Assembly (NCBI GenBank): GCA_022925895.1
Contig: JAKSYS010000646.1
Span: forward strand, 1 to 35,753
DNA: 35,753 nt
Source of the DNA: Fragilaria crotonensis
Lineage: Eukaryota; Bacillariophyta; Fragilariophyceae; Fragilariales; Fragilariaceae
Direction: 5' to 3'
Numbering within the stretch: position 1 is the stretch's first letter; every line of letters begins with the position of its first letter. Shown in pieces: positions 4,768 to 29,985 of the stretch. A program made the translations under genes and the position numbers. Under the pieces are notes generated by a model, which was not told the origin of the DNA, did no database searches, and saw nothing but the letters and a program-made list of their open reading frames with translations.

Positions 4768-4839
4768 TAGTAGATAGCATGTCAAACGCGAGCGAGGAAA
4801 GGACGGGTCCCCGATTAGGTTTCACCAATTTGAAAAAAA

Positions 4840-6270
4840 ACAACTAAATATCAATTTAACGTGCTGCCGCTTCACTCGCTACGGGGTGGTCGACCCACAC
4901 GACCAGATACTACCCTTCCGTATAAGGTAGCGTCCGGTGGTCAGTATCGCGTCCTCGGAATCACCGTACTGGTGCAAAGTACGACCGTATTGATCGTACG
5001 CCTGAGATTGCTCTTCGTTTAGCGCGACGTAAGCTCTCTCGTAATATAGGCCCATTTGTGTGTATCCAATTCCGTGTTGTATGATGCCGATGCCTCTGAA
5101 TATGATCTTGCGCTTCGCTGTACAATAAACTTTGGTATTCCGGTTCCAGCTGTTCCCTTTGGTCGTATATTGTTCTCAGTTCTTCCTCTGTTCGTCGTCG
5201 ATTTGCCTCATTCTGAGCCGTCATATTTATTCCGTGGACCAAGTCGTTACGTGCCTTCCACAAGATCATCCACTGCTTCCAAATCTCAAGTATAAACTTC
5301 TTCTGCCATTGCTTGCCTTTCTTGCGCAATTGAGTGTTATTGCTCCCGTTCGATCCAGTAAGCCTTGCTATGTAATCCTCTTGTACCGTCGACCATGCTT
5401 TTGCGAACCGGCCATTGAATACCTGTCTCCACCCTATCTCATTCTGCTGCAGTATCACTCGGCGAACATCCGGCGGAAAGAGGATTGGTGATACATGAAC
5501 GTCATCCATGTCTTCTGCAAACCATAATTCCATCGCTTCCCTCCACATGCCGGAGCAACGGGGATGTGTTTTCCTTTTCGTGAAACCCATCTATTGCTAC
5601 CATAAAATCGCGCCGCCATCGCGCTCGTTTGTCCTGGCAACATCTGATGATGTGATCTCGTGTTTCGTCTGCGTTGTTACATGCCGGGCACTTGCGCTCG
5701 CCTTTGGTGAGTTTATTCAGCCGCTGAAATGTTGGTAGTATCTCATGGACCAACTTTGTCAAATGAACCCGCTTCCCGATCATCCCGTTAAGAGCTTTCC
5801 CGTGAGCTTTCCAATTGATTGACGCCATCGTCTGATCGGTCCAGCTATTGCGTTGTTGAATATGCTCACGTAGCGGAGGCCCGGTTGCGTAGCTGCGTAG
5901 CTCTGTGACAACTTTTGCCGTGATCGTGCCTTCCGAGAGTGTTACAAAGGCTCCTGCATTGGGCGACATCAGAACAAACGGGTGGGCTTTCCCCATATTG
6001 TTGTTGATATTCTTTTGCTTTATCGTCGGCGTCCACATTCAGCTGAGAGATAAGGGACAGTCTTGTATACGCCCGATGCGTGTCTTGATGTCCTTTTACA
6101 TAAGTCAATTTCACATCTGGGAGTACTCTGAGCGACTCTTGAATTTCGTATAAAAGATCCCATTCGGCGACCATCACATCCAATTCTTCCAGCATCCCGG
6201 CTTGCAATGGTCCCCCCTCACGGACTCTCGTGGTGCCAAACAACTTCTCCAACATGCTCCGGCTGTCTGT
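4840..6270 (-). pseudogene. 5'-truncated non-LTR retroelement: RNase H tail, zinc knuckle and C-terminus
   Basis: Read on the minus strand, this is the last third of an ORF2 protein in three overlapping frames (6255-5866, 6038-5502, 5590-4961). The first frame carries late RNase H motifs: TDSRSMLEKL just upstream of 6255, then VKGHQD and LNVDADDKA. The second has a C-x2-C-x8-H-x3-C zinc knuckle (CPACNNADETRDHIIRC, about 5690-5640). The third has WKARNDLVHG and ends SIRSYFAPVR before a stop near 4961. The endonuclease and reverse transcriptase are absent, as expected for a 5'-truncated insertion. The 3' end carries AACGTGCTGCCGCT at about 4859-4872 and an A run near 4836, a signature shared with the copy at 25.6 kb. 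The frames change twice by single-base shifts, so this copy is inactive unless those are sequencing errors. Confidence 0.8.
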
Positions 6271-6998: not shown

Positions 6999-8328
6999 AT
7001 GGTGGCTTCAACCCCATCCAGAACCTTTACTGGTACTCTGACTAGTTCCTACCTGCTCACTGGAGACATCGGCGGCACCAACAGTCGCATGAGGCTGTAT
7101 GACACTGTCAATCCGAAAGCCCTCGTCGAAATAGACTACCAAAACCAAGATGCGCTTCCCACAAGCGAAAGGACGGAGGGGAGCATTTGAACGCTTGATC
7201 ATGGATCCTTTCCTCGAGTATTGCTGGGAATTTCTGAAGCTGGAGGAATCCACTCCAATCGAGAATTGTGAAATTATTGCCGTTCTTGCCTGCGCTGGTC
7301 CGGTCAAAAACAACAGAGCAACTGTGACTAGCCTGGGGATCAAAATTGACGGAAAGGCCATTGAACAAAGTCTTCACTGTCAGAAGACGTATGTGACCAG
7401 TGTCAAGCGAGCATTGATCATTAATGAGGTTGTTGCGCAAGGATACGGCTGCCTAACTCTCGATCACAAGACAGAAGTCAGGGAGCTTATCCCAGCATCT
7501 CATGCCTTTATCGACCCCAATGGACCGAAAGTCTGCGTTGGAGCTGGAACCGGGTTGGGCGAGTGCTTCCTTACTCCCTATGGGAGCGGGTATACCTGTT
7601 TCCCAAGCGAAGGTGGCCACGTGGAGTACAACCCTCGCTCCGACCTAGAAGTCAAGTTGCGAGCCTATTTGATGTCCAAGTTCGACGATGCTCACCGTAT
7701 CTCAACGGAGCGTGTTGTCTCGGGCACCGGGCTCGCGAATGTCTACGAGTTTTTAGCACTTGAATACCCAGACTGGAAGGAGGAAATGATCCATGATGCG
7801 CTCTTGTCTGGTGGTGACTTGAATGGGAAAGTTGTCGCTGACAGCGTGAACAGTAAGAAAATCTGCGCCCTTGCGATGGATATCATGATTAGGTATGTTT
7901 CGTCGCACAATGTGCAAACGTTGTCAAAGGATGGCGTCGATGAGATGACTAACCCTCAAGCTCAATTGTTCTGCATGACAAGTGCCTATGGATCTGAGGT
8001 CGGGTCCGCAGCATTGAAGTGGATTCCAACAGGCGGGCTTTATGTCACTGGGGCTCTTACTCGAAAGAATATAGAGCACATTGAAGGCAAGGATTCCATG
8101 TTCATGAAGGCATATTGGGACAAAGGTCGCGCTAGTCACGTCCTGAAAGATATTCCTTTGTTTGCAGTCATGGTAGAAGATTTGGGAGTGCGGTAAGTTA
8201 CTGTACCACGAAACGACATTTATGGCGTCTGACAACACTAAACTCCCCTAACTTGATTTGATCCCTGTTGCAGCGGAGCCTATCACGTGTGCACCACCGA
8301 GTATGCGAAAATCAAAGCGGGGACTTAG
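6999..8328 (+). CDS. GLK: glucokinase, bacterial type (one intron, one frameshift)
   Basis: It phosphorylates glucose to glucose 6-phosphate with ATP, the entry step of glycolysis. The sequence matches the bacterial-type glucokinase family (Pfam glucokinase, PF02685). LTGDIGGTNSRMRLYD is the first phosphate-binding loop, GAGTGLGE the second, PSEGGHVEY the conserved EGGH region, then SGTGLANVYE and PTGGLYVTGALTRKN. The ATG at 6999 has A at -3 and G at +4. The reading frame breaks at about 7178-7181, where removing one G from GGGG joins the two halves without loss (TEGAFERLIMD). This is either a sequencing error or a recent null mutation. An 81-bp intron (8193-8273) splits the Arg codon of the conserved LGVRGA segment, and exon 2 ends at the TAG at 8326-8328. 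Total length is about 417 residues, somewhat longer than bacterial members. It may be cytosolic unless an upstream presequence exon exists. Confidence 0.93.
8193..8273 (+). other. spliceosomal intron of glucokinase
   Basis: The donor is GTAAGT after GTG-CG and the acceptor is CTGTTGCAG before CGGAGCC. Splicing gives VRGAYHVCTTEYAKIKAG, the expected glucokinase C-terminus. Without splicing the protein stops immediately after the exon. ACTTGATTTGA upstream of the acceptor is a possible branch-point region. Confidence 0.9.
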
Positions 8329-10572: not shown

Positions 10573-12590
10573 ATGATGGACCCTCCCGTTCAACTTCCCA
10601 CCGCTGGCAAGCAAACTCAAGCGCCCTTTTCTCAAGATGACGATGACACTGTTGTTACTCCACCCGAAAGGTGACAGAGGCAACAACCGAGGAACAGTCA
10701 TGCAAGAGAAAACATTGAAATTCAGATTTCCGCCGCCCACTAGTAACAACAGCGCTGTTAACCCTCTCTTACTTCACACTCATTGGATGCATGAAGTAAA
10801 AACGGCGTATGGTGATGGTGTCGTTTTCTTAGACAACAACAATCGCAAGATTGACAAGCTGGATCCGTTACGTACAACGTCCGAATCTCCAACATACTAT
10901 TTCTCCGTCAAGGGCTTGTCCACGTCAGCGAAATCTCCTGAATCCCAAGCGAACAACACAACTCGCTTCATTATCCATCGCATTCAGTCTAAACACTCCT
11001 TAAGCGAGATTTAAAATGTAACAAATGTGGCAAAGCAATCTTATGCAGAAGTACGATTTTTACGTCAACGAGCATTGCTGGTGTGAAACTGATTGGCAGA
11101 CAACTCAGCTGGGTTTTTTCTATGACATCGACCCACAGTATTACAATATTGATCAAGCAACGTGCAAAATTCAAGAAGTTCTTAAGCGGAATGCCCCCAG
11201 GATGACAGTCCCAAAATTCCGACTCGTTTATTGCTCTCCTAAAGTCCGCACATCTCAAGGAAGCAACCGCTCAATTCGCACTAAGGCGTATGCTATCGAA
11301 ACCCTTCGAAAAGACCGAGACGACATGATCCGTATTCTCAAGCAGGCATATAAAGACAATGGCACTTTTGTTCCGTTTCAAATGCGCTCGCGTCATCCAG
11401 AAGCTTTCGAGAAGATGATTAGGGCACAGACGCATCGATTATCAATATGTGGGTACGGACGTTATGCATTATATTTCAGAACGAATTTTAACAATCGACG
11501 GAGTACGAGCACTCCTTCCCTGCAAATCAGTAAATGAAGATGGAAAGTACAAGATATTGGTCAACAAAGACCATTATCACGCAACGAGGAAACGTCTAAT
11601 GGAGGAACTCACTATCTGGATTGAAGACAATGCAGCACCTCATGCCAAAGCGACTTCGATCAAATATCCAACTTCCCCCCAAGGACCTCCGATTCAATCC
11701 GATGGTTTTTCAAGCGGCGAACAATCATACATGAATATAAGTGTCAACACTGCATTCTCTGTGGGATCAGCCATATCGGATACAAGTCCACCTACTTATA
11801 TTTTTCAGGACACAAAAACAAGAATGTCGTCGGATGACTCCACATTAGAAGGAAGTCAAACAAATTCTTCAAGAGGTCATAATCACACATGGGCGGATAC
11901 TGTCGTTGGTCGTAAATCTGCAAAGGGAAGTCCAGACATCATTCAAACAAGCATAGACCAATCAACAATAGTTAGCGATCTAGAAAGCAGTCGTGCTGAA
12001 GTGGAAACATTGAAATCGAAGGTGGCTCAACTGGAAGCGGAGCGAGCTGAACAACAAAAAGTACTGGCAGACACTGTGCAAGAACAAGTATCAAAGGCGG
12101 TTCAAGATCAGTTGATGGTCTTCCCAGCCCAAATGACGCAAATGTTCGCAAATCTTGTCTCCAGGCTGCATCAAGTATCGACTAGTACTATACCCAAACG
12201 ATCAGCTCAAGACATGGAAGAGGAACAGGTCAATAATCAGAATACAGACGATCTCAGCAGCGGCACATCTAAGAGATGGGATAAAAAGAAAACACCAGTC
12301 AGAACATCGACAATCGAGGAAACGAATCAGGATCAAGACACCTGGCAGACACCAGACTATTTGGAGCAAATTGCATCACAATCAGAGTGGAGCGGGTATT
12401 CAACGCCCCAATAAAAATAATTAAAAAAATCTTGGAAAACACGAACTCAAAGGAAGAGGAAAATCGTGAACAACAAATGTCGGAGTCAGGAGACGAAGAC
12501 AGTACAACGCACGGCTCTGGAATTGAAAGCATCAATAAGTCCTTAGCAAACATAATGGAGGCTGAGGCGACGGAGAAACAAAATGAATAA
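10573..12590 (+). CDS. non-LTR retroelement ORF1 (coiled-coil protein, frameshifted)
   Basis: The frame starts at the tandem ATGs at 10573-10578 (MMDPPVQLPTAGKQ) and continues in overlapping frames through about 11014, 11025-11537, 11449-12414 and 12387-12590. Most of the protein has no motif I can name. About 11970-12120 encodes a clear coiled coil (SDLESSRAEVETLKSKVAQL onward), followed by a polar, charged C-terminal tail. Such coiled-coil ORF1 proteins usually bind the element's RNA and form trimers or other oligomers; here that role is inferred from position. The last frame ends at TAA 12588-12590, overlapping the ATG of the next ORF (12583) by eight bases. The single-base frame breaks may be sequencing errors. 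Confidence 0.65.
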
Positions 12591-12897
12591 CCCCCAGGAT
12601 GAAACACAAGGTCACGATGCCGAAGAGCAACCAATCTACCGGCACCTGACATTAAGCGAAAAGTTAAATATAGCACAGACAGAATGGAGAAAGATTTTTG
12701 CGCAAACGATTGATGATGGTACAGCCACACGAATCAACCGGGAGATACACATGTCAGTCGAAAATCAGAGGACGAACCAACCATGGGGAGACAAACTTCA
12801 AGCAAAAGGTGAAGGAACAATAAGAGTATACGGCGCTAATGTTAATGGATTCACCCTACATCACAAGGCGGCGGCTTTTACATGGACTCCTACATAG
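12583..12897 (+). pseudogene. start of non-LTR ORF2, cut off at the APE endonuclease
   Basis: The ATG at 12583 begins an ORF2-like protein. After a polar leader it reaches GTIRVYGANVNGFTL (about 12814-12858), which corresponds to the first strand and Asn of the apurinic-like endonuclease domain; the full element further right has LRIFFQNVKGLTY at the same place. The homology stops near 12880-12890 and the frame ends at TAG 12895-12897. No remaining APE, RT or RNase H follows, so the element is 3'-truncated or interrupted by the DNA beginning with the transposase region. Confidence 0.65.
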
Positions 12898-13207
12898 TAC
12901 ATTGTTTTACAAATTATGTCCAAACTTTTTACAATTTGTACCTTTATGTATTTTACATTAATATGGAATTTTTGACCAAAACCATTCAAAATAAGTGTAC
13001 CACCTATGGTACGCCAATTTTGTATTTCAAACATATCCATGCATATAGTGAACACCTCTATGTATGAAGTGTTCTGTTTCTTTTTTTGTATTCGCAACTT
13101 TCTTGGTATCGGAGTACCACTTCATTTGTGTCATTCTCAACCTACATGCAAGGGTTTTCTGTTTAAGTCGCTCGTCCTTGTCTGTTGTTCATTTTGATGC
13201 CACCACC
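12898..13207. other. AT-rich left flank of the transposase gene
   Basis: This probably holds the left end and promoter of the DNA transposon. It contains repeated short motifs such as TTTACAAATT, TTTACAATTTGTACC and TTTTACATT between 12905 and 12962, and a GAACACCTC / GAAGTGTTC pair near 13049-13075. I could not find a matching inverted terminus on the right side. Confidence 0.4.
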
Positions 13208-16200
13208 ATGAGCCTCCAGGCCAGGCTTTCACGTCGGATCGAAAATTCACGCAGGAGAAATGCCAAGAAAGTCCTCATGTTATCCCCAGAGAAAGACCAA
13301 TGTATTTCATGTGGTCGATTTGTTGTTGCTGGCCCAATGGGTCTGTCCCGTCATCTCTCAACGCATCCTCAGTGTTCCTTGGATTATTCAAAAGAACCTT
13401 CCATTCATGGTGGCATAATGGACGCACCCCTTCATCACCAACAAACCAATGCGAGCTTTCATGCTGCCTTGTCATCTGTTACTGGTGCCCATGCAAACAA
13501 CGATCACATATCTTTACTACCCTTGCACGTTGAGGATGATTTTGTTGGTACCTCGTCATTTGCTGATGTTGATGAAAATGACCCTTTACTATCCATCGCT
13601 GAGGACTCCACCACCTTTGCATCCAACCATCCCAACAGCAGTGTCCCTATGTCTGCTGCTGAGATTGGCGATGCCCCTTCTTTTTCTGATACATTCAAGG
13701 ATCCATGGTCAAATGATCACGATGATGGCCTTGAACTGTCGTTGTTTTCTGTTGAAGAAAAGGTTCAGATTGATCTCCTTCAGACCCTGAAGAGACTCAA
13801 AGCTCCAATGATTGCTTATGACGAGGTTATGAAGTGGGCTGTTAGATCCTGCTCAGAAGGACACATTTTTCGCGACATGCCGATCACTTCACGTAAGACG
13901 GTTATGGACAAGCTGCGTGGACGTGTTGGCCTCGATTCTTTGACTCCCATTGTGAAAGAGCTCTACCTCCCTTATTCAAACTGCCACATTGAGGTTGTTT
14001 ATTTTAGTGCCCATGCCGTATTCAGTTCTCTTCTTTCTTGTCCGGACCTTAACCAGGACGAGAACTATATATTTCACGACCCCAACAATCACCACCTTGA
14101 CCCATTTGCAAAACCGTCCGGGTCAGTTTTGGGTGATATCAATACTGGCATGTCCTACCTGAAAACCTACGACAAGCTTATCAAGAATCCTGAGGATATG
14201 TTACTTCCATGCACACTTGCAATTGATAAGACAACATGCGACATTGGTGGCGGTGGTAGGTTGAGTTTGGAACCCATTGTTCTTTCCTATGGACTGATGA
14301 AGCATGACATTCGCAAGACACCCGCCGCAATGAGGGTGTTGGGTTTCATCAACACAACTCCTGTGAAGGAACGTGATTCCTCTCCTGGTGTTCCAAAAGC
14401 CAATACGCCACTCCCAATTGTATCATCTTCACTTGTTTCTGATGCTTGCTACCGCGTAAATGAATATCACCTTCAAATTGACTTCATTCTTCGTGAGTCA
14501 GGATATCTTCAACTCCAAGAAACAGGTATGAAATGGAACCTTTGTTATCGCGGTAAATCTTTCCCTGTTGTCTTGCACCCTTACGTTCCATTCATTGTTG
14601 GAGACACTGAGGGACATGACACTCTCTGTGGTCATTACCGATCTCGCACAGCAGGTGTTGCACAGCTATGTCGTGCTTGCGAGTGTCCAACTGGGAAATC
14701 AGGTTATTCCAAGGCACGTGCCTATCCAAAACGCACACCCAAGTCCGTCAATGAAATGGTCACCAAGCGACAGTTTGACTTGTTGAAGTCAATTCTCAAC
14801 AGTTTCTGATCAATGCGTTCGATTCTGTCCGATTTGGCGCCCACAACGATCGCGGCATTTTTGGTGCCTGCCCTGGCGAGATCCTTCACTTGGTTCTTTT
14901 AGGCTGGTTCAAAATGTTCTTGACTCGTTCTTTAAGCAAATTGGAAAGACATCCGAATTTGCAAGGAGGTATAATAATCTGTTATTGGACATCAACCAGC
15001 AAGTACGCCGGCAAAGTGATCGTCAGATTCCCAAGACAAATGTCACAAAGGGTTTTCCTCCACCGCTAACATTCCTGGACATGAATATGCGGGATGCCTG
15101 TTCATCATGCTGATTTCATTGTACACCACTCAATTCTCAGAAATATTTCAATCAAAAAAGGCATCGTCTCATCAGCCCGATGTTGACATGAACCTGAGCA
15201 ACCCTGATTTTGTCAACGACTGGAAGCTTTTACTCAGTTCTTTGCTTGAATGGCACGCCTGGCTGAAGCAACCTCATATCCCACGTCTATCCGCATTGAG
15301 ATCTGGCTATGCAACATCGTCGCTGATGCGAACCCTGAAGTTTGTTGCCCCCAGACTTGCCGGTGCCATGGGCAATGCAACAATCAAAACACATCTTGTG
15401 TTGCATATTGCAGACGACATCCTCAATTTTGGTGTCCCCGAGGTTATGAATAGTTCCTATGCAGAGTCTGCTCACATCACCATCTCCAAAGATACCACAC
15501 GGAATACCCAAAAGCGTCAAGAAACATTTACAGTCCAGGCTGCTATGCGTTATGTTGAGAACCTTGCAATTAGGAAGTCTGTTTCCAGTGTCAGCGATTC
15601 CTCTCCAAGCACCAACTTGCCTCCCACCACTCATCGCTTGCAAGGCAAGAGGTATTCCATGGAGAGGGATGCTCATGGTAATGTAAAGTGCCGCCGTTTT
15701 GCATCAAAGAAGAAAGTTGACGACTCCATTCCTGAGGAGTACCACCTGAATTCACATGTTACCAACACCCTGGCATCGTATTGCCTCCCTCACTTGACTA
15801 CGTCAATTCTTCACTGTCACACTGAATACAAATCTGCTGATGGACAGATCTATCGTGCCCATCCCAACTATCACCAAAAACCATGGTTCGACTATGCTTT
15901 GGTCAAGTGGTCCGGATTCAATGATCTCTTCCCTTCTCGAATTCACACCTTTCTCAACCTTCACAATGTACAAAGTGGTTCCCGTATCAGTTTCCCCCAC
16001 TCAGGACAATCTGTTGCCGTCAAAACGCCTGGTTTTTATGCGGTTATTGAGTCTTACAATGAGGTTGTGCTTGACAATGATGATGACAGCAGTGATGTGG
16101 AAGACCTTGACGTCGAAGAAGTCAATGACCACAACAATGTGGAAGAGGAAGTTGACAGATCCATCTTTCGAGAGTTCAAGCTCTCATTAATCCCCGGAAC

Positions 16201-16588
16201 TCTCCAACCAATCCTCTACCTTGTCCATGTCAATGCAATATGGAGACCTACTGTGGCCATTCCCGATACATTCAGCGATTCGCCCCCCGACAACAATGCG
16301 CAAAGTCTTCCCGACATCAAGTACCTATTCATGATTCTCTCCCCATCTGAGTGGTCAACAACGTGGGACTCCTTCATTCACAAGAAGCACAGAGAAGTAG
16401 TCATCACTCGTGAGAAACCCGAATCCGACGAAAGTGGGGATGAAGGATTTGTGCAACGGCGTCAAATTGTCGCACCAGCACCCGTGAAATCCAAACGTCG
16501 CAAACCACGCGTTCGCAACAGTGGAGTCATCGGAAGGGAAGGGAAGCCCGAATTGCAAAAAGCCCGCAAACGAAAACGTAGTAAGTAG
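13208..16588 (+). CDS. large DNA transposase, CACTA/Plavaka/KDZ-like
   Basis: The ATG at 13208 is in a CACCACCATGA context. An N-terminal zinc finger is visible (CISCGRFVVAGPMGLSRHLSTH, C-x2-C-x13-H-x3-H). The central region has candidate catalytic acids in LAIDKTTCD (about 14217-14243) and FIVGDTEGHD (about 14593-14622), followed by LCGHYRSRTAGVAQLCRACE. Next come GIFGACPGEILHLVLLGWFK, RQSDRQIPKT and, near 15463, YAESAHITISKD, a plausible third acid. This layout (large protein, IDxT, GDxxGHD, PGEILH, late E) is like the tnp2/Plavaka/KDZ group of cut-and-paste transposases. The frame breaks three times. Each break is healed by one extra base in a homopolymer: T run at 14793, A run at 14911, T run at 15053. 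The restored product would be about 1,130 residues and otherwise undamaged. The C-terminus is basic (KRRKPRVRN, RKRKRSK), perhaps a nuclear signal. Confidence 0.75.
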
Positions 16589-16925
16589 ACGAATTATATC
16601 TCTGAAGTCCATGTCATTCTTCCCTATTATGTATCATTTTGTTGCCCTGTGGGTAGACCAGCCAGTGTGTCGCATGTTCCAGTCGATTGCGGGGTGACCG
16701 GAAAGACCAACAAGGTTTCCCCTCCTTCTTTCGTCACCTCGTCAAGAATGTTGCATTTTTGTTGGCTGCAGCCTTTCTGTTCCACCTCGCGAAGTCTGCA
16801 CCGGTTCACCAACAATTCCGGCACCTCCGAGGCCTCTCAGATCAGATGGTATTACCGTGTTGATTGTTTTTCGATCAGGTGTCCATCTTTCGTCGTGAAG
16901 GGCATAGTCCTAACAAAATTAAGAA
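16589..16925. other. spacer between two convergent genes
   Basis: This is a 337-bp spacer between the transposase stop and the stop of the minus-strand gene. It probably holds both 3' UTRs. A minus-strand frame of about 65 codons (16824-16627) could be an extra 3' exon but has no recognisable feature. Confidence 0.45.
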
Positions 16926-19900
16926 TCAACTTTCGAAGTAGAATACGTCGTCACAGGCAAGGGCGTGAACCAGAATTACATCAGGAATCAGCGTAGTGAT
17001 CATCGAAGCAAATGCCGATAGAATGTTGTCCACCAGCCGCGATGGAAGACGTGCAATTGCATGTTTTATGCTGAGGCACATCCTGTCAAAGATCATGGCA
17101 TACCTCAAACCAAATCCAATGGTTTCTCGAAGAGCCAGAACCATAGTCTCAGTGGCATGTCTAGCCACAACATCTCGGTGATCATCATCGCATTGTAGGG
17201 TCAAGATTGACTGTAACGCAGTTGATAGACTCTCCAGCGATTTCCATCGGAACATGGGAGGAACCTCCTTTGCAGCCATGAATCTCCGTTTGTACCAGCT
17301 TAACCTCTCATCATACAATGGTGAGTTAAGGTCATAGCAGAATAACCCATCATCTTCTTCATACTTTGAAAGAGCACCACTCGTCACTTCATCAGTCCAA
17401 TTGGGACAAGTGTCACTTAATGACGCCACACCAGCTGTAGCAGCCGGAACCTTAACTAGAAATAGTACAGACGTATCTGACGGTTTTCTCCATGTGGGCA
17501 GGACCGGGAACCATCACTCTCTTGTTCCCCAACCTGTGCATGCGCACCGGGAGGCAAGAAGGGTTCAAATTTTCTACGGAACACATCCCGTAGTTTCTTT
17601 GTTGGGAAAAAGACTCTGTTTCCACCAAGGAAAGTTCCCGCAGTCAGAGATTGGATTGCAATCATACGCCTGTCAGATCCGCATTCCCCCGACACACCTA
17701 TCATGACGTTATGCCGAATGGCGTCATCAAATGTTCTCCAGTCACAGTCGTTGACTTTGATCCACGTATCGTAAGCACACCCGTATGACTGGACATGAGG
17801 ATACTGGGTCTTACACGCAACCATCCGAACGTAATACCATGGAACATCCAATATCCATTCCACACCAGTACGGAGTGTTGTGAACCCCGGTAAAAACAAC
17901 TTCCAGAACTCTTCAAAGTGGTATTGCAAATGAGGACATGGAACCAAGATGTGCGATGCGCGAACCAAATGAGACGCCGTGACCTCCGATGGTTGCAGGA
18001 TATCAAAGAGTGTTTCCGATTCTCCATTCCTGCTGCAAAGGAAATACGGATAATAAATTCGAACATCGAAGCCACTCCCATCGTTGATTGGCCGATGCAG
18101 ATATCGACAAGCATATCCGGGAGTTCGACGCCCACCCGTAAGGCCACGAGGAGGGCAAGAGGTTCGCGAGGGTCCAACATCGTTCGATAGCGGCCACCCG
18201 CACAAACAAAATGAAGAGCATCTCGTTTACTTCCCGGTTGTTCACGCACAACAAATCACACACCCCACACGTCTCTTGCCCCACCAGAGGAAGCAAGTTG
18301 GGCAGCCCTTTCGTGGACTCGTGATGAACAGCTTTTTCACAGTTCCGTTCCAGTGTCAATGAACGGGCGGATATTTTGCCGATCGTCACCGCATCATCAA
18401 CTTTCTTGAGATGCAACGTTGTTGTCGTGCACGTAGAGTTGACACCACCGTAATCATCTTCAGGTGCTGATGAAGATGGGGCATCACATGATATAGACGT
18501 GTGCATGGAAGCGGAGTTCCGACAATTGTCCCAAACAAGTAAGTCGTCAGACACCCCCTCCCCAACAGCATCAGAAGCTGGGACTCCTTCATCAACACTG
18601 CTGTCGTCTTCATCATCGCCCCCGTCTTCATCATCGCCCTCGTCTCCAAGACCGAGATCAGATTCAAATCCATCCATCCAATTGCATGCCAATGATGGGG
18701 AGACGCCGCAACGTCCAACAAGAACGCCATCGACATCACCAACAACAACTTTCGATTCCTCAGTTGGCGTTTCATCAACGATACCTTCGGGTAAATCCTC
18801 AGCATCAGACGGGGTGCAACACTCCGGTTGTGCTTCCCCACCTGCCCACGTCGCTTTTGCTCCAAAGCGATGGCCCGTTGCACACCATACCGAACGATGG
18901 CTGTCTTTGCCGCAAAAAAAGTGCCATAAACATGACAGTCCTTCTTTCTTTGCATCATAGAGGTGCAGTGCCTAATCAGCCTCCCATCCCAGCTTATAAG
19001 GACACCGTGAGTTAGCTTTATTGCCATGCCGTTGTATGTTGTACCAGCACTATTTTTTTTCCCGAAGACATTGGGAAGCACAAAGTACCAATCTGTTGTG
19101 GTACCAGGCTCATCTTCAGTCCAGATGCTGAACCCTTGCGACGCGTCGTTAACGTCATAGTGGGAGGAGTTTGCCAAATCAACACTAACATCCATTGTAT
19201 GGGACACACGACAAGATGCACCATCACCCCTCATGCCACCCGAAGGTTTCAGGTCGGCATCATCTTCCATGTCCTGCATGACCCTTAGCACAGCAGGAAC
19301 CGATTCCGAGGCCAGCTGGGCTGCAGCTCGAACACACGCCCCAAGAACCGGACGGTCCAAAAGAGTAGAAGATGCAACATATTGTGTTCTAGTCACAAGA
19401 TCCCTTTCAATTCGAGTCCCCACCGGGTGCATAGACCCAAGATCACCCTGGTTTGCCCTTACCCCCGAAGCACCACGACTTCGACGAACACTGGCAGCAT
19501 GGTCACGAACAAGTCCAACCAGATCAAGGGCACCCCTGCCAAGTGCAGGAAGGTACCTTACCTGTATCACAGAATCGCGAAATAGGGCAACCATATTGTT
19601 CCCCTGATGGTGACGAATATGAACGGAAACATTGACATCCACATCGCCTTCCTTTTCAGGATCAATGATCCAAACCGAATCTGGATTTATATGGTGATGG
19701 AGGTATCCCGCAACATAATGACGGCAGCCTCTTCTTGCCGATGTTGACTGTAAATACTTTTCAAGGTAGTCTCGCCGAAGCTCTTGTGTATTCCTTGTGG
19801 AATGAAAGTCCGCCCCCCCAAATATAGTCCGGTGGTAAGCGGGGAGAATCCTCGTCGGCACATTGCTGTACATGATACACAGACTTGGGTGGAGATTTGT

Positions 19901-20896
19901 CGAAAGTGATTCCGACAGCATTACCAGTGAGACGGTCGGGAATGACAAGTTTCGGCGAACCCGATGGATCCTCCATCTCCAGACACAGTCAGGATCACCA
20001 CCCCACAGACGTGTCACATAACCACCTTTCCCAAATCTCCTCTCCTTCTTCCCGTTCTTGACAACCCGAAGCCAGTTAATGTCAAGTGGTACATGCGTAT
20101 TTGGCACGCCAACACATACCTTCCTCCTCTCCCGGTGGCAGTAAAACACACCCGCCTCCGGAAGCACAGCGACCAACGCCCTGAAACGGTGGTCGTGACA
20201 GGGCTCCTTCAGGGAAATGTCATCAATACGCATCTTGACGGGAGTATCAACCGTAGCGCGGGTGGAAGACAATGGCCTTGGAACTTTCTTGGAACGCGCC
20301 AAGACAGCATCGAGAACAATGATCTCAAGAACGTGAGGAACAGCCACACCACACGTCTTGTCGCGATCACACTTCATGAATTGGCACTGTTCCACGGAAA
20401 CATTACCAACACCAAAGGTATCCACTAGTGCTTCGTGAATACTGGAAACGAAGGTTTTGCAAACCTGTGCTCCAGGCGGGATGGCATCATGCACCCACTT
20501 TGAACCGGCTGTGGGCAATCCTGATGATGGAGAAAGCGCTTGGTGAAAGACTCCGACAGATGACGTGGAATGCATTTCGACAACACCGCCGCAGCCTGCA
20601 CTTGACTAGGGCAGAATGTCTTGCGGCGCGCGGGATCCGAAAAATGCGACTCATCTCCAGACGAAAGACCGCGAAAGACACGAGGATTTTTGTACCCGCA
20701 ATGATATAACGCGAGCTCTCCAGGAAACGTTCGGCCCCACATGGGAAGCCACCAATACACGACGACGTACCGGCGAGGCGAGATCCTGAACATCCAAGAC
20801 ATCAGAGTCCGCCTTGCGTTTGCGGTTCTCACAAGGAGAGGAGCCACATTCCCGAGTATGATTGCAAGAGCGTCTCCCAAATGGTGAAGTTGACAT
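16926..20896 (-). CDS. large TE-associated protein with possible Fe(II)/2OG dioxygenase core
   Basis: The likely start is MSTSPFGRRS at 20896-20894. Coding then runs in shifting frames (to about 20760; 20760-20500; 20560-18700; acidic frame 18692-18250; 18205-17456) and ends at 16926. At about 1,300 residues it is unlike any protein I can name. Residues of the 20575-18386 frame contain SVDLANSSHYDVNDASQGFS, then WYFVLPN, then IKLTHGVLISWDGRLIRHCT. An HxD pair (His and Asp codons 19162-19154) and a distal His (18970-18968), 64 residues apart between strand-like segments, fit a double-stranded beta-helix dioxygenase. An acidic linker (GDEGDDEDGGDDEDD) follows, then an aromatic-rich C-terminal region. 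It converges with the transposase and its 5' end abuts the satellite at 20.9 kb. Function is unproven. One short piece (19976-19761) must be read in another frame to join the rest. Confidence 0.55.
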
Positions 20897-20911
20897 AATT
20901 GCAAGAACAAC

Positions 20912-22271
20912 AAGCACCGCGTCACTGGATGGCAACGACGATCCTCTTCGCAACGTCAGGTACCGCGGCGTCAACAAACAATCGAGCGTCACTGGATGGC
21001 AACGACGATTCGTTTCTTCGCAACGTCAAGCGATGGCGACGACAATTCTCTTCGCAACGTCAAGCACCGCGTCACTGGATGGCAACGACGATCCTTTCGC
21101 AACGTCAAGTACCGCGGCGTCAACAAACAATCGAGCGTCACTGGATGGCAACGACGATTCGTTTCTTCGCAACGTCAAGCACCGCGTCACTGGATGGCAA
21201 CGACGATCCTCTTCGCAACGTCAAGTACCGCAGCGTCAACAAACAATCGAGCGTCACTGGATGGCAACGACGATTTGTTTCTTCGCAACGTCAAGCGATG
21301 GCGACGACAATTCTCTTCGCAACGTCAAACACCGCGTCACTGGATGGCAACGACGATCCTTTCGCAACGTCAAGTACTGCAGCGTCAACAAACAATCGAG
21401 CGTCACTGGATGGCAACGACGATTCGTTTCTTCGCAACGTCAAAGCGATGGCGACGACAATTCTCTTCGCAACGTCAAGCACCGCGTCACTGGATGGCAA
21501 CGACGATCCTCTTCGCAACGTCAAGTACCGCGGCGTCAACAAACAATCGAGCGTCACTGGATGGCAACGACGATTCGTTTCTTCGCAACGTCAAAGCGAT
21601 GGCGATGACAATTCTCTTGGCGTCAAACACCGCGTCACTGGATGGCAACGACGATCCTTTCGCAACGTCAAGTACTGCAGCGTCAACAAACAATCGAGCG
21701 TCACTGGATGGCAACGACGATTCGTTTCTTCGCGACGTCAAAGCAATGGCGACGACAATTCTCTTCGCAACGTCAAGCACCGCGTCACTGGATGGCAACG
21801 ACGATTCTCTTCGCAACGTCAAGTACCGCGGCGTCAACAAACAATCGAGCGTCACTGGATGGCAACGACGATTTGTTTCTTCGCAACGTCAAAGCGATGG
21901 CGATGACAATTCTCTTCGCAACGTCAAGCACCGCGTCACTGGATTGCAACGACGATCCTCTTCGCAACGTCAAGAACTGCGGCGTCAACACACAATCGAG
22001 CGTCACTGGATGGCAACGACGATTTGTTTCTTTGCGACGTTAAGTTTCCTTTCTTTGCAGCGATGCGAACCGCGTCACTGGATGGCAGCGACGATTCACT
22101 TTGAAACCTTAAGTACAACGTCGGTAAGGGCGACGAAGATTCCTTTCGCACCGTTAAGCGGCACCGCGTCAGCGAGCGACAGGAACGACAATTCCTCTCG
22201 CGTTAAGCACCGTGTCACTGGATGGAAGCGACGATTTGATCTTGATTGTTACTGGATGGCAACAAAAGATC
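20912..22271. repeat. satellite with ~150-bp higher-order unit
   Basis: The landmark CACCGCGTCACTGGATGGCA starts at 20915, 21065, 21180, 21330, 21480, 21628, 21778 and 21929, so the unit is 148-151 bp, with one 115-bp unit. Each unit is built from three related blocks that all contain GCAACGACGA or GCGACGACAA followed by CTTCGCAACGTCAA. The 115-bp unit lacks the GCGATGGCGACGACAATTCT block. The right edge (22030-22270) holds decayed copies. The unit is divisible by three and lacks stops in several frames on both strands, which creates long apparent ORFs. These are side effects of the repeat. Confidence 0.95.
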
Positions 22272-22897
22272 GTATTCGTCAAACCTTGTGAACGTGTGTT
22301 AATTGCTACAAATTGCGGAAAGAAACTAAAAAGCAGAGCGGTGAAAAAGTACTAGAGGACTACGTACAGGCTAGTTCGCAACATATGTTGCACAAACAAC
22401 AAGACTGCAATGTGGGACTTCATTTTGCCGCTTAAAACCACAAATTTGCGCTGTACAAGCATACATACAAAGAAGGTATCTACATATATGCCATATATGT
22501 AGAAACTTAGTTACATAGGAATTTGCCATGTACACGCATACATGCAAAGAAGGTATCTAGGTATATGCCATGTATGAAGAAACTTAGTTACATAGGAATA
22601 AGTTGAAACTTGGAAACCATTTGATAACTGTAGCTTACACTGGCAATACGTGCAAAACGACGTATCATAACCGTCGTGGCACTGACATGTTTGCAGTACG
22701 TATCAACCTGTGCTAAGTATCAAAGATATGCATACTACAACTTGCTCATAATGGGAGCATATGCGCATATGCACGCAAAATTTCGTTCGAAATACTACAT
22801 ACGTGACTATATATCTTTGCATTGAGAAAATGCGTTGCAAACCGGTGTAGAATTGAATTCAGGTACTATGCCTCAAAGTACCCGGCACAGACATCTA
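22272..22897. other. gene-free spacer with a 77-bp tandem duplication
   Basis: No gene is seen. GCATACATACAAAGAAGGTA at 22459 recurs as GCATACATGCAAAGAAGGTA at 22536. The surrounding 77 bp, including GAAACTTAGTTACATAGGAA, is duplicated with few differences. The stretch is rich in TACATA and CATATG. Confidence 0.7.
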
Positions 22898-23343
22898 CAT
22901 CATGCTGGTACAAACAAAATTCAAATACCATGCGAGTACTAAACGTACTACAGTAACATAGCAATTCGTACGTGGAGACATATGTATATGTACACCACGT
23001 AATAGAACACAAACGTAGTAAATATAGCTGTACATACAGCATGTACAGGAGTAATAGTATGCATACGGTGATTTGAAATCAAATGTACGACCGGTTGTCC
23101 TCGCATTCGCCCAACGAAAACATCATGCTGGTACCTGGTACAAACAAAATTCAAATACCATGCGTGGTACTAAACGTACTACAGTAACATAGCAATGCGT
23201 ACGTGGAGACATATGTATACACCATGTATACAATAGAACATAAACGTAGTAAATATAGCTGTACATACAGCATGTACAAGGAGTACTAGTACGGTGATTT
23301 GAAATCAAATGTACGACCGGTTGTCCTCGCATCCGCCCAACAA
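22898..23343. repeat. 223-bp tandem duplication upstream of a gene
   Basis: Copy 1 starts at 22898 and copy 2 at 23121 (CATCATGCTGGTAC). They agree almost throughout, including ACTAAACGTACTACAGTAAC and TGATTTGAAATCAAATGTAC, and differ by a few substitutions and small indels. Copy 2 runs directly into the gene that follows, so the duplicated unit probably includes its promoter or 5' UTR. Each copy contains the 14-base palindrome ATTTGAAATCAAAT. Confidence 0.9.
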
Positions 23344-23359
23344 AAGGAGCGCACAAAAC

Positions 23360-25056
23360 ATGAAAAGAAACACAAACTCCAACACATTGTCTGAAACATT
23401 GTACGACCAGGTAAGAGGAAACAAGCAATTAAGACGAACAGGAATGCCGCCAAAGAGGGTTTGGAATGATGAAAACATAGACCCAGAATCAGGAGGTAGG
23501 TCAAAAGATGTGCAGGGAAGGAGAGTACAGCAGAGGAGGAGTCTGCGCAACTTGAATCAAAATTTGGAACGGCATTTGAACGCAAATGGCAACGAGTAGA
23601 GGAAGCTCACCATCTAAGTCTGTATTGGAGGAACTAGACACCCTTTCACAAGATAACTGCTCTAGTAGTGAGGATGACTCTCATGCAGTAGGAGAAGGTC
23701 ACCATGAGCGGGATCGCCAGCAACAGGAGGGAGGACCCCATTTTTCTGGTGATGTGCAAGTCGACGGCATGCCTCCATCCAGAGACATTCCAGGTGACAC
23801 TTCATATCACCTGAACAATGGGAATATGCTGCAGGGTGGAAGCAACAGTACTGCAAATATGCAAGTCGGTGGCAGGCCGCCATCTACCGGAGGCAGACCT
23901 CCATTCGGAGACAGACCCATCCAAACTGCACGTGACCAGAACAGGACACAAGCTCCACTCAATCATTGGACAAGCACACAGTCAGACAACCATGTTCGTC
24001 AGAATGGACGATTGCCTCCATCCAGAGGAAACGACTTCAATGATGACTTGTTGGTCTCTCGACAGCAGCAACCTCCAATGAATCAGGAAATGCACCAGAG
24101 ACACCACGTGCAGAACCAGCAGGAGTCCATTTGGGAACATCACGAAGGTGTTGGACAAGATATCAGGTACAGGGCAGGAGATCGGACACTACTACATGAA
24201 GCCGGAAGACGAGCCATGTCCTACAGAGCCGCAAAAGCAATGCAGCAGAAACATGTTGCCGATCGCATACAGATTGTGGTGAAAACGAAAGTCTTCCGGA
24301 AATGCAAGTTCATTACAAGCGGGGAACACTTCGACAAGGTAATGCAGGTGGTTGTGGATTCGGAGAAACCAGCTGATGCTTCCAAATTTGTGAGGATCTA
24401 CAAAACATGTGTCGTTGGAAGCCTGAATACTAAACGTAGCACATGTGGGCAAGCTGCTACTGAAGCAGTGATGAAACTGCTGAAGATTAAAAACATGTTG
24501 ATGAAGTGGAGCCACCGCCCTATTCAATGGATATCCTTTGCAAGCTACGGCAGTCACAGTCTGATCTGGAGAGAGGCCTTTCTGTGGTTTGCTGGTGAAT
24601 TGCTGGAATGTGTCAGTGGAAAGAGGGCATGGGGGCGAGGACAAAGTATAAGGCAATGATATCAGAAGCAACATCAAACGATACCGGAGAACTGATTGTG
24701 ACGGTTTCGGACGAAGCATTTGCGTTGCTTCTATATGAAAATTATATTGACAAGTGGATCAAGAGGTACCACGAGGATCGAAGGGAGAAGAGAGGTCAAA
24801 ACGGATTGCTGGGAGGTACACAAGAAGTAGCGTTGGGTACTGTGAATATGGAGGCTGGAGCGAGGACGGTGTGCTGCGATTCAATGAATTGTGCCAAATG
24901 GTGCAAGAGGACAGGGCCAGTCGAAATGCAAGGGAGGCTGAGGGTAGGCTAATGGCAAGTCTTCGGCAACAAGCAGGACAGGGAGTGGAGAGGAGCAATG
25001 AGAGGAGGTGGATTACAGTGATTCGCAAAGGAGTTTGGACCGGAATGAACAAGTAG
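23360..25056 (+). CDS. unassigned multi-frame gene, probably transposon-derived
   Basis: Frames 23309-23599, 23586-24659, 24608-24952 and 24754-25056 overlap in series and look like one protein of about 560 residues broken by shifts. I start it at the ATG at 23360, because an earlier ATG (23309) lies inside the duplicated upstream unit. The N-terminal half is polar and disordered, with repeated motifs such as GRPPSTGGRPP and GMPPSRD / GRLPPSRG. The middle has a folded region (KVFRKCKFITSGEHFDKVMQ; FVRIYKTCVVGSLNTKRSTC). The end has SDEAFALLLYENYIDKWIKR and, in the next frame, GRYTRSSVGYCEYGGWSEDG followed by RFNELCQMVQEDR. I recall this ending from multi-copy uncharacterised algal genes, which suggests a mobile origin, but I cannot name a function. 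Confidence 0.5.
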
Positions 25057-25606
25057 TCAATGCATTTATTGAGTTGTAACTAGCAACAATTGAACGCAGC
25101 GACCCAGTACTATGAAAAGCAGTATTATTATACAGGGAATGGTACTGTGACAAGATGATACATTGTAACAAAGAATGGACATCCAAAGCATGCGTGGTGC
25201 AGTGACAAAAAGGTGATTGGTGTAGAATGAATGTTACAACGCTGTACTGGACTAAAAAAAACATTGTACAAAGACAAACAAATTACGGACAGTAAGCAGG
25301 CAATGGTACAATAAAAAAAATGTTACATGTAACATGCACGTCGGGACGATGTACTGGACTCAAAAAATATTGGTACATGCACAAAAAAATAAACAGGAAA
25401 AACAATATGGTACATTGTAATAAGATATTTCGAAGTGTACCGGACTCAAAAAAAAACAGTCTATGTAACAAATATGTTACATGTACCACCCGCCACCTTG
25501 TGATGTAGGCCGACGAGGCGGACAATACGACAGTTTTTGTACTGTGCTGCAGGAAGTTCAGGCTGACATTGCGTGCGGGCAAGAACACAATCTGGACGCA
25601 ATAAAA
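25057..25606. other. AT-rich 3' flank with short direct repeats
   Basis: No gene is seen. GTACTGGACT or GTACCGGACT followed by an A run occurs at 25244, 25351 and 25437. TACATTGTA, TTACATGTAA and GTTACATGTA palindromes are scattered between them. It could be the 3' UTR or terminal region of the preceding gene's element. Confidence 0.5.
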
Positions 25607-25990
25607 AAAAACTGAAAATCTAATTAACGTGCTGCCGCTGTATCCGACTTAGGAGATACTCGACCCACACGGTTCAACACTACTGCCGTGATGGTAGTGG
25701 CATCAAACGGTTCCATTCCTTCGTGGAGTTCTCGGGTACCTTGTACTATACGTCGGCAGGTACATGTACCGGTCTGAAATAGGACTGTATTGTTCTTACT
25801 CCCTGCCTTGATTGCTCGCGTACTCGTCGGAGGCTGTCGCGTATTAACGGCGTGTTCATTGTTATCCAATTTCGTGTGACCCATGTGGGCCTCTGCAGAT
25901 GCGTCATCACATCGGTATGTAACAATTGTTGTACCGGCTCAACAAAGGTTGCAGTCATTGCTGCTGGCACTGCAGTGTCATTGTCTTGTT
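25607..25990 (-). pseudogene. non-LTR retroelement C-terminal tail and 3' end
   Basis: Read on the minus strand, the frame gives PVQQLLHTDVMTHLQRP, then TRNWITMNTPLIRDSLRRVR and GVRTIQSYFRPV. This matches the end of the left element (TRNWIHTNGPILRESLRRAK, GVRSIRSYFAPV). The 3' end carries AACGTGCTGCCGCT at about 25626-25639 and an A run at about 25602-25610, as in the left copy. Homology is lost at about 25990, where an inverted piece of the same kind of element starts. Confidence 0.75.
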
Positions 25991-26019
25991 CTCCTCCTCG
26001 TGCATCTCGTCCATGCACT

Positions 26020-26570
26020 AGACCTCTCGCGGACGGAGCGCCGACTTCTTGATGGGTTGGAACAAATTGCCTCTGATGTACAAATATGGAGGCTTTCAGT
26101 GAAATCACGTCTACACTAGCTTCAGGCGGACTTGGAGATAATGCGGCGACTCATGGATGGATTCTAAGTACGGGAAAAGAGATTCTCTATCAATGCTCTG
26201 GCCCTGTGGACGGTCCTGATACTGACATCATCAACACGCCCATGACTTGGCGGCTGCAGCGTCTCTCTTCCTATCATCTCTATCTGAATTCTGGGGCATT
26301 CGCCATCGATGTTTGTTTAGGTGGTACGGATAGTCAATCACCAATCAGCCGGTTTATAAATTCTGTCGTGGATCTCGCCCTTGTCGCATGCCCCCGGACT
26401 CTGATCTTCTGTCCATTATTTCAACTTGTCGACGGAAACTCAAGAGACCGTTCACACCTTACTGGGTTCGTGCGCATCAAGATAACTCCATGGCCTACGA
26501 TAGGCTCCCTGTGTCTGCACGCCTTAATATCGACGCCGACTTTTTGGCAACACACAATTTTCTAGTTTAG
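26020..26570 (+). pseudogene. inverted RNase H fragment of a non-LTR retroelement
   Basis: On the plus strand, RTERRLLDGLEQIASDVQIW and then LASGGLGDNAATHGWILST and SGPVDGPDTD correspond to YQRRLLSSVRLCVSEAEVW, IASDGGLKDARGTFGWTLST and SGPVDGPRDV of the full element further right. The first catalytic Asp of RNase H is missing (ASGG instead of ASDGG). Near the end, in another frame, YWVRAHQDNSMAYDRLPVSA and LNIDADFLAT give the late RNase H motifs. It lies head to head with the minus-strand tail at 25607-25990. Confidence 0.75.
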
Positions 26571-26646
26571 AGTTTCGCAAGTACAGTCTGTCCGCAGTCC
26601 GTAATTGCGTACAGTAAATAGGAAGTTGTCGCGTACCCCAAGCATC

Positions 26647-29600
26647 ATGACCATGACCGAAGGAACGGCTCCCACGCCTCCTTCGGCTCTCCCCGTCGAT
26701 TTGACTCCATCGCACACGATGTATGGATTCGAGACTGACACCTGGGTAGATCAACCCATTCCCGAAGCTCCCGACTGGTTTTCCCGCCAAGAACGTTATC
26801 GTAGGAACGCCAACGCGCAGGCCTATCGGCAGTACGGACACCCAACCAACTGGAATCGATACATTCATCTTGGATTGTTTGTGTTCGAAGATTGTTTCGA
26901 ATGCGACAAAGTTTGGGCAGCTGTTAACACGGATCCTCTCATGGTCCATAGAGCAATCTGGTATAACTTCATGAGTCACGTTGATCGTGATCTCCAGGTT
27001 CCAGTCAAGTTAAACGATTGGGCAACCAACATCTCTCAACCGTATCTAGCGGTCCATGACCCAACGACATTGCACGAAACCGATACCACTGCTTACTCTT
27101 GGAAAGAGATGCGATTTTCAAACAGCAAGAGGAAATGGAGATTGACGATGCCCAAGCTTGGATCCCAGTTTCAGGACGCCGTCGATCAAAGAGCCCACCA
27201 AATCAGCAGTCCATTATTAACGTGAATACGAGCAATGTTGTCGGTGCCTTTGCTCCTGGTTTTAATCTTCCCCCAGAAGAATTACCAAGGAACTATCGAC
27301 CCATGGAAAACAAACTGCCGGAACAACGAGGACAACTCCCATTGATCCAAAAGAACAAAGACGTGATCGAAAGGAAAGGGGAAAAAGCTGACCAGCTCAA
27401 CAAAACGATGAGAGAGAATAAGAAGCAGGATTCTCAGCAACTTCCACTTGGTCGAAATGTGACGGATAACGAAGTTGAACAGAAACCCAACACGTATTTG
27501 GTAACAACCGACATGATCTAAATGAAAAGGAGAGTACGACGCCATGGAACAATACAACCACCCAAACAGCACCACATCCAAACATTCCGACAAACGATGG
27601 TACCCATCGAGTCACGATCAAATGGTTCCCACCGGAGGATTTGGCAGTATACGAAAGCGACAAAATAAAATGAATGAAGCAATCTACAACTTAGTGAGTG
27701 ATATTCTCCCGAACAATACGGAATGCTGTACCGGTGGGAAAGCGAAGATTTGATGATGTCAAATTCGGTGCAAAATCTAACAGCTATCGGGTTACGAGAC
27801 TATATATCTCCGAAAGTTACAATGATACCAGAGCGATCTCAGATGATATTTGGAGTCCGCTTTGGCTTTAAGAACAATCCGTCCATGTGGAAGAATTCTG
27901 AAATGATGAAGGAAAAGTTTACAACAAAACAACTTGATGTCACAATTTCAAACTCTGCGAGCTCAAGTGGTAAAATGGTTACAGCGGGATATATCCTGCT
28001 CAAAGCTCCGAACACCACTCATAAACTCTGGTACAACAAGTATTTAAGGAGTTTACTGCCGGATCATGCTCCATTTTTGACGTCATTCGACAGAAAAAGT
28101 GCCCTATGGATCAGCTAATTCCACATCTCACGATCCAATGCGGGGAGAAACATGTCACACCGTTGTGCCAAGCACTTCTTCCGATCATGACGGGACGAGG
28201 TATCGCTCTGTTCTTACCAAGATACGCACTAGGCACAATGAGCAACGAACAGGTTCGGAAACATTTTCAGTTCCATGACAGGTGGGCAAAGTCATTGCAA
28301 GCGATCACACTTTCTCCACAAGTCACTCATCTTGATCAAGTTCGCACTGAATACCATGAAGACGGATCAACAACAAAACGATCTACACGAGAATGGATAG
28401 CATCTCTTAAAGAAAAGGACGGAACCACTTCAGCTTTATGCGATGCAGTTAACGGGACAAATGACAACAAGGCATATTTGGTGACTCCGAGTCATTATTT
28501 TAAACGCGCACAATATCAATGGCAGCAATACAAATCAAGGCTTTTCCCTCCGAGTCATCGAGAAGCAAGGTTCAGAGACAATTTACCAGGTCTTCCCGAC
28601 GTAATAGTCATTCAGACGGAGATCCAAGCAAATGTGCAATTCCTGGAACAAATGTCGATGGCGACAACATGGCACCGAGAACCAGAAGGACAACCAAGGT
28701 CAGATTCAACGTCGCCAAGCAACAATTCCAATCACAACAAGCCCCAAACAGTCTCACAGAACACCAGTCTGAACTCACATCTCCAACGCACAAAACAAGC
28801 ATGGCCAACTCCATCTGAGGCGTCCAACAACCGTAGCGATCAGTCCACTGGAACAACTAACCAACGCAACAACCATGAGCAAAACAATCCGTACCTCGGG
28901 TCGGAGGCAAGTTCTGCCACAAGTATGGAAGAGGAAAGAAGCACAACCTCAACACGATCAATGACAGTTGTCTCTCGAATGAATAGCACGGACTCTAGAT
29001 TCCATGAACTCGAACAGTTAATCAAACGACAACAACAGGAGTCGAAAACATCAGGGAAGATATCATCGGACCGCTTGAACAATCTTGAACGGCAATTCAC
29101 AAGAATAGAGGAGTTGGATACCAAAATGTCGGCAGTCCAGACGCAACTAGAACATTCAAATGTGAAGCTGGAACAATCGGCAAAAGAGCAAAAGATCTTA
29201 TCAGATAATTTGGAGGTACTTTCCAAGGAAACATCCCACCAATTTTCAGACATGAACGACAAGATACTTCTCACAATGGAAAGCCAACAAGACATGTCAT
29301 ACACGATGTTGGACATGAGAAACAATTCGAACAATTATCTCAGTTTATGACAGCCATGGCGGACAAAATGGAAATAGCAATGACACGACAACACATCGAC
29401 GGCACGAAGTATTCAAACCCTGGAAATTTGGAAAATCCTAGGGCAAACAAGAAGCCAACATAGTGGCGGGTCGAGCGTGCATTCTGGATCGACGAAATCG
29501 AAGACATCTCAGGACTCATCCCAAGACACGAGCGTTTACAGATCTCCTGAGAAAAAGAAGCATACAAGATCCAAACACCGAATCGGCGATGACGAACACA

Positions 29601-29680
29601 ACAACTGCATAATTGCGGATAAGATAGATAAGGACAAGATTAAACCAATAGAGGGCCTTGCATACCAAGAAGAAGGGTGA
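26647..29680 (+). CDS. non-LTR retroelement ORF1 (frameshifted)
   Basis: It begins at ATG 26647 (MTMTEGTAPTPPSALPVDL). The N-terminal region is aromatic-rich (GFETDTWVDQPIPEAPDWFS), followed by a polar linker in the next frame (27099-27521). A third frame gives THRVTIKWFPPEDLAVYESD, and the frame from 27723 gives FGVRFGFKNNPSMW and LWYNKYLRSLLPDHAPFLTS. The 28106-29350 frame adds ALFLPRYALGTMSNEQVRKH, a Ser/Asn/Gln-rich stretch, and a coiled coil at about 29000-29330 (RLNNLERQFTRIEELDTKMS onward). A last frame reaches 29680. The layout parallels the ORF1 at 10573-12590, including the C-terminal coiled coil, but it is about 1 kb longer. The role as an RNA-binding oligomer is inferred from position. 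Several breaks are healed by one base in a homopolymer, for example GAATG to GAAATG near 27721. Confidence 0.6.
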
Positions 29681-29985
29681 AGGATTCGCAATTCATGGAA
29701 TCGGTGGTGAAGACCTTCTTGAGGATATGTCTGAGTCGTCGGACGTCTGCTTAAACCTTGAAGATGCTTTCGAGGAACTACAACACGCTAATACCCTACA
29801 CCAGGCTAGCGGACAACATCATATTGGGAACCTTGCATCCCGCGAAGCCCCAACCGATCTGGACGATCAATACACAAGACCCCTCGATCCAGACGGTGGC
29901 AAACCTGATTAATGGCGACACAGCATCATAATCAGCAGCGTACAGAGGAGGTGATGCGGACACGAGGACTACCGCGAACGAGGAA

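Follow-up and report, generated by a model that had tools for sequence, protein, structure and literature searches.

A probable PlavakaB-type DNA transposon enclosing a large accessory gene in a contig of Fragilaria crotonensis

Contig JAKSYS010000646.1 of the Fragilaria crotonensis assembly GCA_022925895.1 carries a DNA transposase gene on the plus strand facing a large gene on the minus strand, and the question raised by this locus is whether the two genes belong to one transposon. The whole stretch of 35,753 nucleotides, referred to as the window, was analysed. A preliminary description of this DNA had suggested a single composite element at 12898-22271, for which no enclosing terminal inverted repeats could be found. 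We conclude that the locus is probably a single PlavakaB-type DNA transposon of the cut-and-paste kind, which occupies 12859-25505 and was inserted at a TA in the endonuclease frame of a long interspersed nuclear element (LINE). It is most likely a decaying, or error-containing, PlavakaB copy with a large accessory gene. As both genes lie within one pair of terminal repeats bordered by a TA duplication (in a single copy), the idea of one transposon stands as the best interpretation, while its supposed limits had to be replaced. The missing terminal repeats do exist, and the right one sits 3.2 kb past the right edge of the interval first proposed:

12857 to 12858, no strand: left copy of the TA target-site duplication, within the interrupted LINE open reading frame (ORF)
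12859 to 12884, plus strand: left terminal inverted repeat, starting CATCACAAGG, 22/26 identical to the right end
25480 to 25505, minus strand: right terminal inverted repeat, ending CCTTGTGATG, pairing with 12859 to 12884
25506 to 25507, no strand: right copy of the TA target-site duplication

The element so delimited is 12,647 bp long, with TA on either side. Both a self-blastn of the window and a separate inverted-repeat search paired 12855-12884 inversely with 25480-25509 at 26 of 30 positions. When the region 12400-26200 was scored blind (30-nt windows, 9-nt seed, pairs more than 3 kb apart), this terminal pair was the top-scoring inverted pair, again with 26/30. None of the dinucleotide-shuffled sequences reached 26 (0/40 and 0/500), the shuffle maximum being 24. 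The left 20 nt found their best inverted match in 12.4-26.2 kb at 25486-25505 with 16 identities, followed by a runner-up with 13. Given the limits 12859-25505, the outermost CCTA/TAGG of the repeat represents the palindromic target. The ends and the TA were set down before the published PlavakaB ends were found, which are described as 5'-CATCA..TGATG-3' with a 2- or 3-bp target duplication (Kojima 2025, PMC12730594). Of the PlavakaB features given in that text, the element shows the Plavaka domain, the CATCA..TGATG ends and a TA duplication, the last as seen in one copy.

It is very improbable that the terminal repeats arose by chance and that, in this repeat-rich DNA, the Plavaka gene simply lies beside an unrelated large minus-strand gene. 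Such a coincidence might be suspected from the short repeat (22/26) and the target duplication of 2 bp only, but none of the 500 shuffles attained the score, the ends are exactly CATCA..TGATG, bordered by TA left and right, and equal the PlavakaB ends published in PMC12730594, and the flanks join into one frame. Some observations count against the one-element conclusion. The inverted-repeat search also gave a longer, poorer pair (35 nt, 77%), which was taken for chance, and the element is known from a single copy, so that there is no sign of the unit having moved as a whole.

The flanks were then read as an interrupted target:

11449 to 12856, plus strand: left target part, LINE-like frames ending ..RVYGANVNGFT
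25508 to 25600, plus strand: right target part, where the frame goes on as GRRGGQYDSFCTVLQEVQADIACGQEHNLDA

On the left, the LINE ORF reaches 12856 and is followed by the element's own left end. The LINE-like frame runs ..GEGTIRVYGANVNGFT on this side and resumes as GRRGGQYDSFCTVLQEVQADIACGQEHNLDA on the other; joining the flanks minus the element and one TA restores a single open frame, and the empty LINE site expected from this join is ..CACCCTAGGCCGA. Joined peptides of 43, 48, 56 and 68 aa matched the Exo_endo_phos family (PF03372) from profile position 3 with E-values of 0.049-0.17. Neither the unjoined flank pieces (five entries, four distinct) nor a joined peptide retaining the extra residues of the left end gave any Pfam match. 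Judged from these translated frames, the two flanks seem to be parts of a single endonuclease frame that was interrupted.

Several results weigh against this view of the target. The PF03372 scores of the joined peptides (12-14 bits) lie far under the cut-off of 24.5, and the family was not listed for a joined peptide of 121 aa. Joins assuming a 5- or 8-bp duplication scored like the TA join (E 0.12 and 0.077). When the spacing was compared with that of the other LINE in the window, the join did not stand out (-9 at the expected offset, against -8 and twice -7 at other offsets). In PDB, the sole match to the joined peptide was an unrelated RCC1-like protein (E 0.0042). The LINE evidence is weakened by the 121-residue peptide and by the alternative joins. 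Because these joins score alike, the PF03372 match supports the continuity of the LINE and not the size of the duplication; the 2-bp size rests on the TA found on both sides.

More LINE-like DNA is present around this target. A 69-bp similarity (75%) connects 25603-25671 with 4835-4901, beside similar minus-strand frames at 25749-26150 and 4964-5590; the latter frame is similar to the C-terminal one of the LINE at 34.7-35.7 kb. The first LINE thus seems to be cut by a further LINE immediately right of the transposon. In the frame-broken region 26605-35709, the matches to reverse transcriptase (PF00078, E 1.2e-4) and to RNase H (E 0.0018) were weak and under the cut-off; the region was assigned by eye to a non-LTR (long terminal repeat) retrotransposon.

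The two convergent genes inside the element are arranged as follows:

13208 to 16588, plus strand: gene for the Plavaka transposase, spread over three frames and broken between about 14790 and 15110
16589 to 16925, no strand: spacer of 337 bp between the stop codons of the convergent genes
16926 to 20896, minus strand: large accessory gene, about 1,320 codons long, whose frame changes at least 5 times (counted by eye)

This arrangement agrees with the preliminary description in the 337-bp spacer, in the plus-strand DNA transposase at 13.2-16.6 kb, which PF18759 bears out though not as one ORF, and in the minus-strand gene of roughly 1,300 residues at 20.9-16.9 kb, which was found frame-broken. 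The transposase ORF 13064-14809 matched the Pfam Plavaka family PF18759 with an E-value of 5.4e-6 and a score of 26.3 bits, which equals the curated cut-off, and a read-through of the gene with X at the breaks raised the match to 29.0 bits (E 8.2e-7; cut-off 26.3). The match spans only profile positions 43-171 of 325. As read by eye, the frame shifts three times at about 14.79-15.11 kb. A candidate N-terminal zinc finger (CxxC at 13301, HxxxH at 13352) and candidate acids (D at 14225, D at 14603 and, across the frame breaks, E at 15464) were likewise assigned by eye. Plavaka transposases are described as having C(2)C and H(3-4)H motifs between the second D and the last E (PMC12730594); here, CxxC at 14669 and HxxxH at 15392 would supply C(2)C and H(3)H in the published order before the candidate E.

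The fungal KDZ (Kyakuja-Dileera-Zisupton) transposons, which had served as the initial model for this locus, share with it the notion of a transposon-borne TET/JBP dioxygenase. They have another transposase, and their target duplications are given as 7 bp (Kyakuja) and 8 bp (Zisupton) in PMC12730594, unlike the 2 bp found here. A KDZ transposase was rejected, Plavaka being the only family listed in Pfam at E<=10, and Plavaka is placed near EnSpm/CACTA and not in KDZ (Kojima 2025, PMC12730594). The fungal KDZ model was hence abandoned. Between 12.9 and 16.9 kb, where termini belonging to the transposase alone had been named in advance as evidence against a shared element, the left end pairs inversely at best with 13463-13476 (11/14, among the six best matches), inside the transposase.

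What the large gene encodes is the harder part of the question. It runs in open segments from an ATG at 20896 to a TGA at 16928-16926, and no weighty match was obtained in Pfam (including Tet_JBP, PF12851), NCBIfam, PHROG or PDB; its best family scores were at chance level (RcsC 0.054, BIG2_C 0.14, a PHROG of unknown function 0.17). One part of the gene nevertheless resembles a catalytic site:

18962 to 19162, minus strand: candidate Fe(II)/2-oxoglutarate site with HYD (H472), LPN, HG (H523), R532 and RHCT (H536)

Residue numbers refer to ORF 18386-20575. The candidate residues H472, D474, H523 and R532 form an HxD motif with a second H at +51 and an R at +9 beyond it. Phage TET proteins (H171, H221, R236) have the distal H at +50 and the R at +15, and the Naegleria Tet alignment has them at +50 and +10. 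In a MAFFT alignment, the HxD columns of the accessory gene coincided with those of the phage TET proteins. With residue order and spacing like those of TET/JBP, a TET/JBP-like oxygenase is suggested. From these residues, a TET/JBP-like 2-oxoglutarate dioxygenase appears to be the most likely single identity of the accessory protein, at slightly below even confidence.

The formal tests, for which a collected phage TET family of 9 sequences served as yardstick, do not favour this identity, nor do the family searches above. Shuffled sequences reached the hmmsearch score in 13 of 949 scored cases (1,000 made), the hhalign score in 15 of 200 and the full-length alignment score in 56 of 400. In the MAFFT and profile alignments, the partner of the distal histidine was H536 instead of H523. 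A blind six-frame scan placed the motif region third among 325 tiles from 127 ORFs, and in a further phage-TET comparison the accessory gene fell outside the top 12 of 240 rows, the best match being ORF 22951-23169 (9.6 bits). With hhalign, the whole ORF obtained a P of 0.15, against 0.61 and 0.79 for two other ORFs of the window. Two single-sequence AlphaFold models of the protein had mean confidence scores (pLDDT) of 31 and 32, which are too low to inform on the fold. As the family searches and shuffle tests were not significant, the accessory gene was not filed as a TET/JBP member.

We give about even weight to the alternative that the element is real while its accessory gene does not code for a dioxygenase but, e.g., for a second transposition protein, or is a captured host gene; this alternative is compatible with a single element. 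The negative or weak TET/JBP searches and significance tests speak for it, and so does the candidate motif itself, which covers only about 70 of the 1,320 codons. The agreement of the candidate catalytic residues with TET/JBP in order and spacing speaks against it, as does the presence of TET/JBP genes in fungal PlavakaB elements (PMC12730594). Of the supposed transposase plus accessory enzyme, the enclosed extra gene was confirmed, whereas its dioxygenase identity depends on the spacing of the motif and was not borne out by the significance tests.

Both main genes contain frame breaks with long stop-free stretches on either side, which indicates recent decay or sequencing errors. Because of these breaks the copy is probably no longer autonomous, unless they are sequencing errors.

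The termini enclose the accessory gene and also the following features:

20911 to 22040, no strand: minisatellite with a unit of about 150 bp, directly upstream (5') of the accessory gene
23303 to 25053, plus strand: third gene, spread over several frames, with 23586-24659 (357 aa) as its longest ORF

The minisatellite is the satellite noted on the right in the preliminary description. Family searches with the third gene gave no match at a meaningful E-value. A tandem duplication of about 215 bp (22905-23345, 90% identical) lies between the minisatellite and the third gene. The AT-rich subterminal region 25056-25505 holds two GTACTGGACT motifs, and all six TGTAACA/TGTTACA motifs of the element are located within 25164-25475. 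Both kinds of subterminal motif are possible candidates for transposase binding sites.

CpG composition gave a further indication that these parts belong together. CpG spanning adjacent codons was compared with its expectation under permutation of the synonymous codons in each ORF, for 12 segments hand-picked among long ORFs. In all five segments from the element (transposase and minus-strand gene, two each; third gene, one), codon-boundary CpG was 0.59-0.70 of the expected value, while the seven ORFs outside ranged from 0.77 to 1.00. The GpC control gave no separation (0.64-1.07 inside, 0.55-1.25 outside). Past CpG methylation of the element would explain this depletion. Whereas the ORFs of the element are CpG-depleted at codon boundaries, the minisatellite is CpG-dense; the region 20895-22270 contains 169 CpG with an observed-to-expected ratio of 1.79, although in a repeat one unit is counted many times.

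These data also bear on the main rival explanation, in which the PlavakaB termini are genuine but the minus-strand gene, the minisatellite and the third gene, or some of them, came in as a later insertion of another element and are not its normal cargo. A length of 12.6 kb is large, the minisatellite and the tandem duplication at 22905-23345 show that the right half was rearranged, and only a single copy is at hand. On the other hand, no inner inverted pair was prominent among the 25 listed of 164 pairs, nor did the left end have a conspicuous second partner, the CpG depletion is similar in the transposase, the minus-strand gene and the third gene and milder in the flanks, and the minus-strand gene stops 337 bp from the transposase. 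We regard such nesting as unlikely, and a single element remains the preferred interpretation.

In the proposed mechanism of this single element, the transposase would bind the ends, cut out the whole unit and paste it at a TA. The accessory protein would help the element to persist, most likely through base modification in the element's DNA. If TET/JBP-like, it might oxidise methylated bases in its own element and counter silencing, as Kojima proposes for TET+ fungal transposons, a proposal noted there as without experimental validation (PMC12730594). Alternatively, the product could be another transposition or regulatory protein. More tentatively still, the locus can be pictured as a probably non-fungal PlavakaB element that encodes its own divergent HxD-type DNA-base dioxygenase and carries a CpG-dense, island-like minisatellite at the 5' end of that gene, so that it would demethylate itself while its other silent sites show CpG decay.

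PlavakaB is the Plavaka lineage reported to carry TET/JBP dioxygenases in fungi (PMC12730594). Like the TET+ PlavakaB elements of Agaricus bisporus and Gymnopus confluens in that article, the element described here combines a Plavaka transposase, CATCA..TGATG ends, a 2-bp duplication and an enclosed extra gene. Unlike in those elements, the extra gene is a candidate TET/JBP gene only, and its candidate motif is HxD, whereas HxE marks the PE type carried by Plavaka (PMC12730594). The minisatellite and the third gene are additional here when set beside the article's text on fungal TET+ PlavakaB, as distinct from its gene maps. The article deals with fungi, and its main text names no algae, diatom or stramenopile. 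Among non-fungal cases, the Plavaka giant repeats of Amoebidium (PMC11244446) likewise unite a Plavaka transposase with large cargo, but they are described as clusters of up to 50 kb with many genes for tyrosine recombinases. The EnSpm-Plavaka families of the green alga Auxenochlorella are also Plavaka-type transposons; the passage concerned mentions no accessory enzyme (PMC12633428).

A search for relatives was made in several collections. Scans of viral contigs confirmed no relative; three of them yielded 1, 8 and 4 candidate stretches, all of which failed tblastn. These viral scans depend on an exact peptide or pattern, so that distant relatives escape them. In a genome contig collection, one scan was without match and another gave two stretches (L011 and L012), both due to chance, with in-frame stop codons around them; L011 was rejected as a relative, its surroundings looking by eye like bacterial ribosomal-protein genes. 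No match was obtained by tblastn of the transposase ORF 13064-14809 against plasmids or of the minus-strand ORF 18386-20575 against phages. A comparable non-fungal case of a transposon-borne TET/JBP partnership was not found among the literature matches listed.

Elsewhere in the window, the clearest non-repeat gene among those scanned is a glucokinase gene at 7150-8196 (PF02685, E 6.9e-48), and an ankyrin-repeat protein with 102-bp and 12-bp tandem repeats is encoded on the minus strand at 1550-3091.

Fungi are known to have transposons that bear TET/JBP enzymes (PMC12730594). Should the host prove non-fungal, the finding of PlavakaB together with a cargo gene of this size would suggest a partnership that is older or has arisen again. 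The exact ends are now defined for searching the source genome, with the end sequences TACATCACAAGG...CCTTGTGATGTA as handles, and the element lends itself to testing directly whether such cargo shields an element from CpG methylation.

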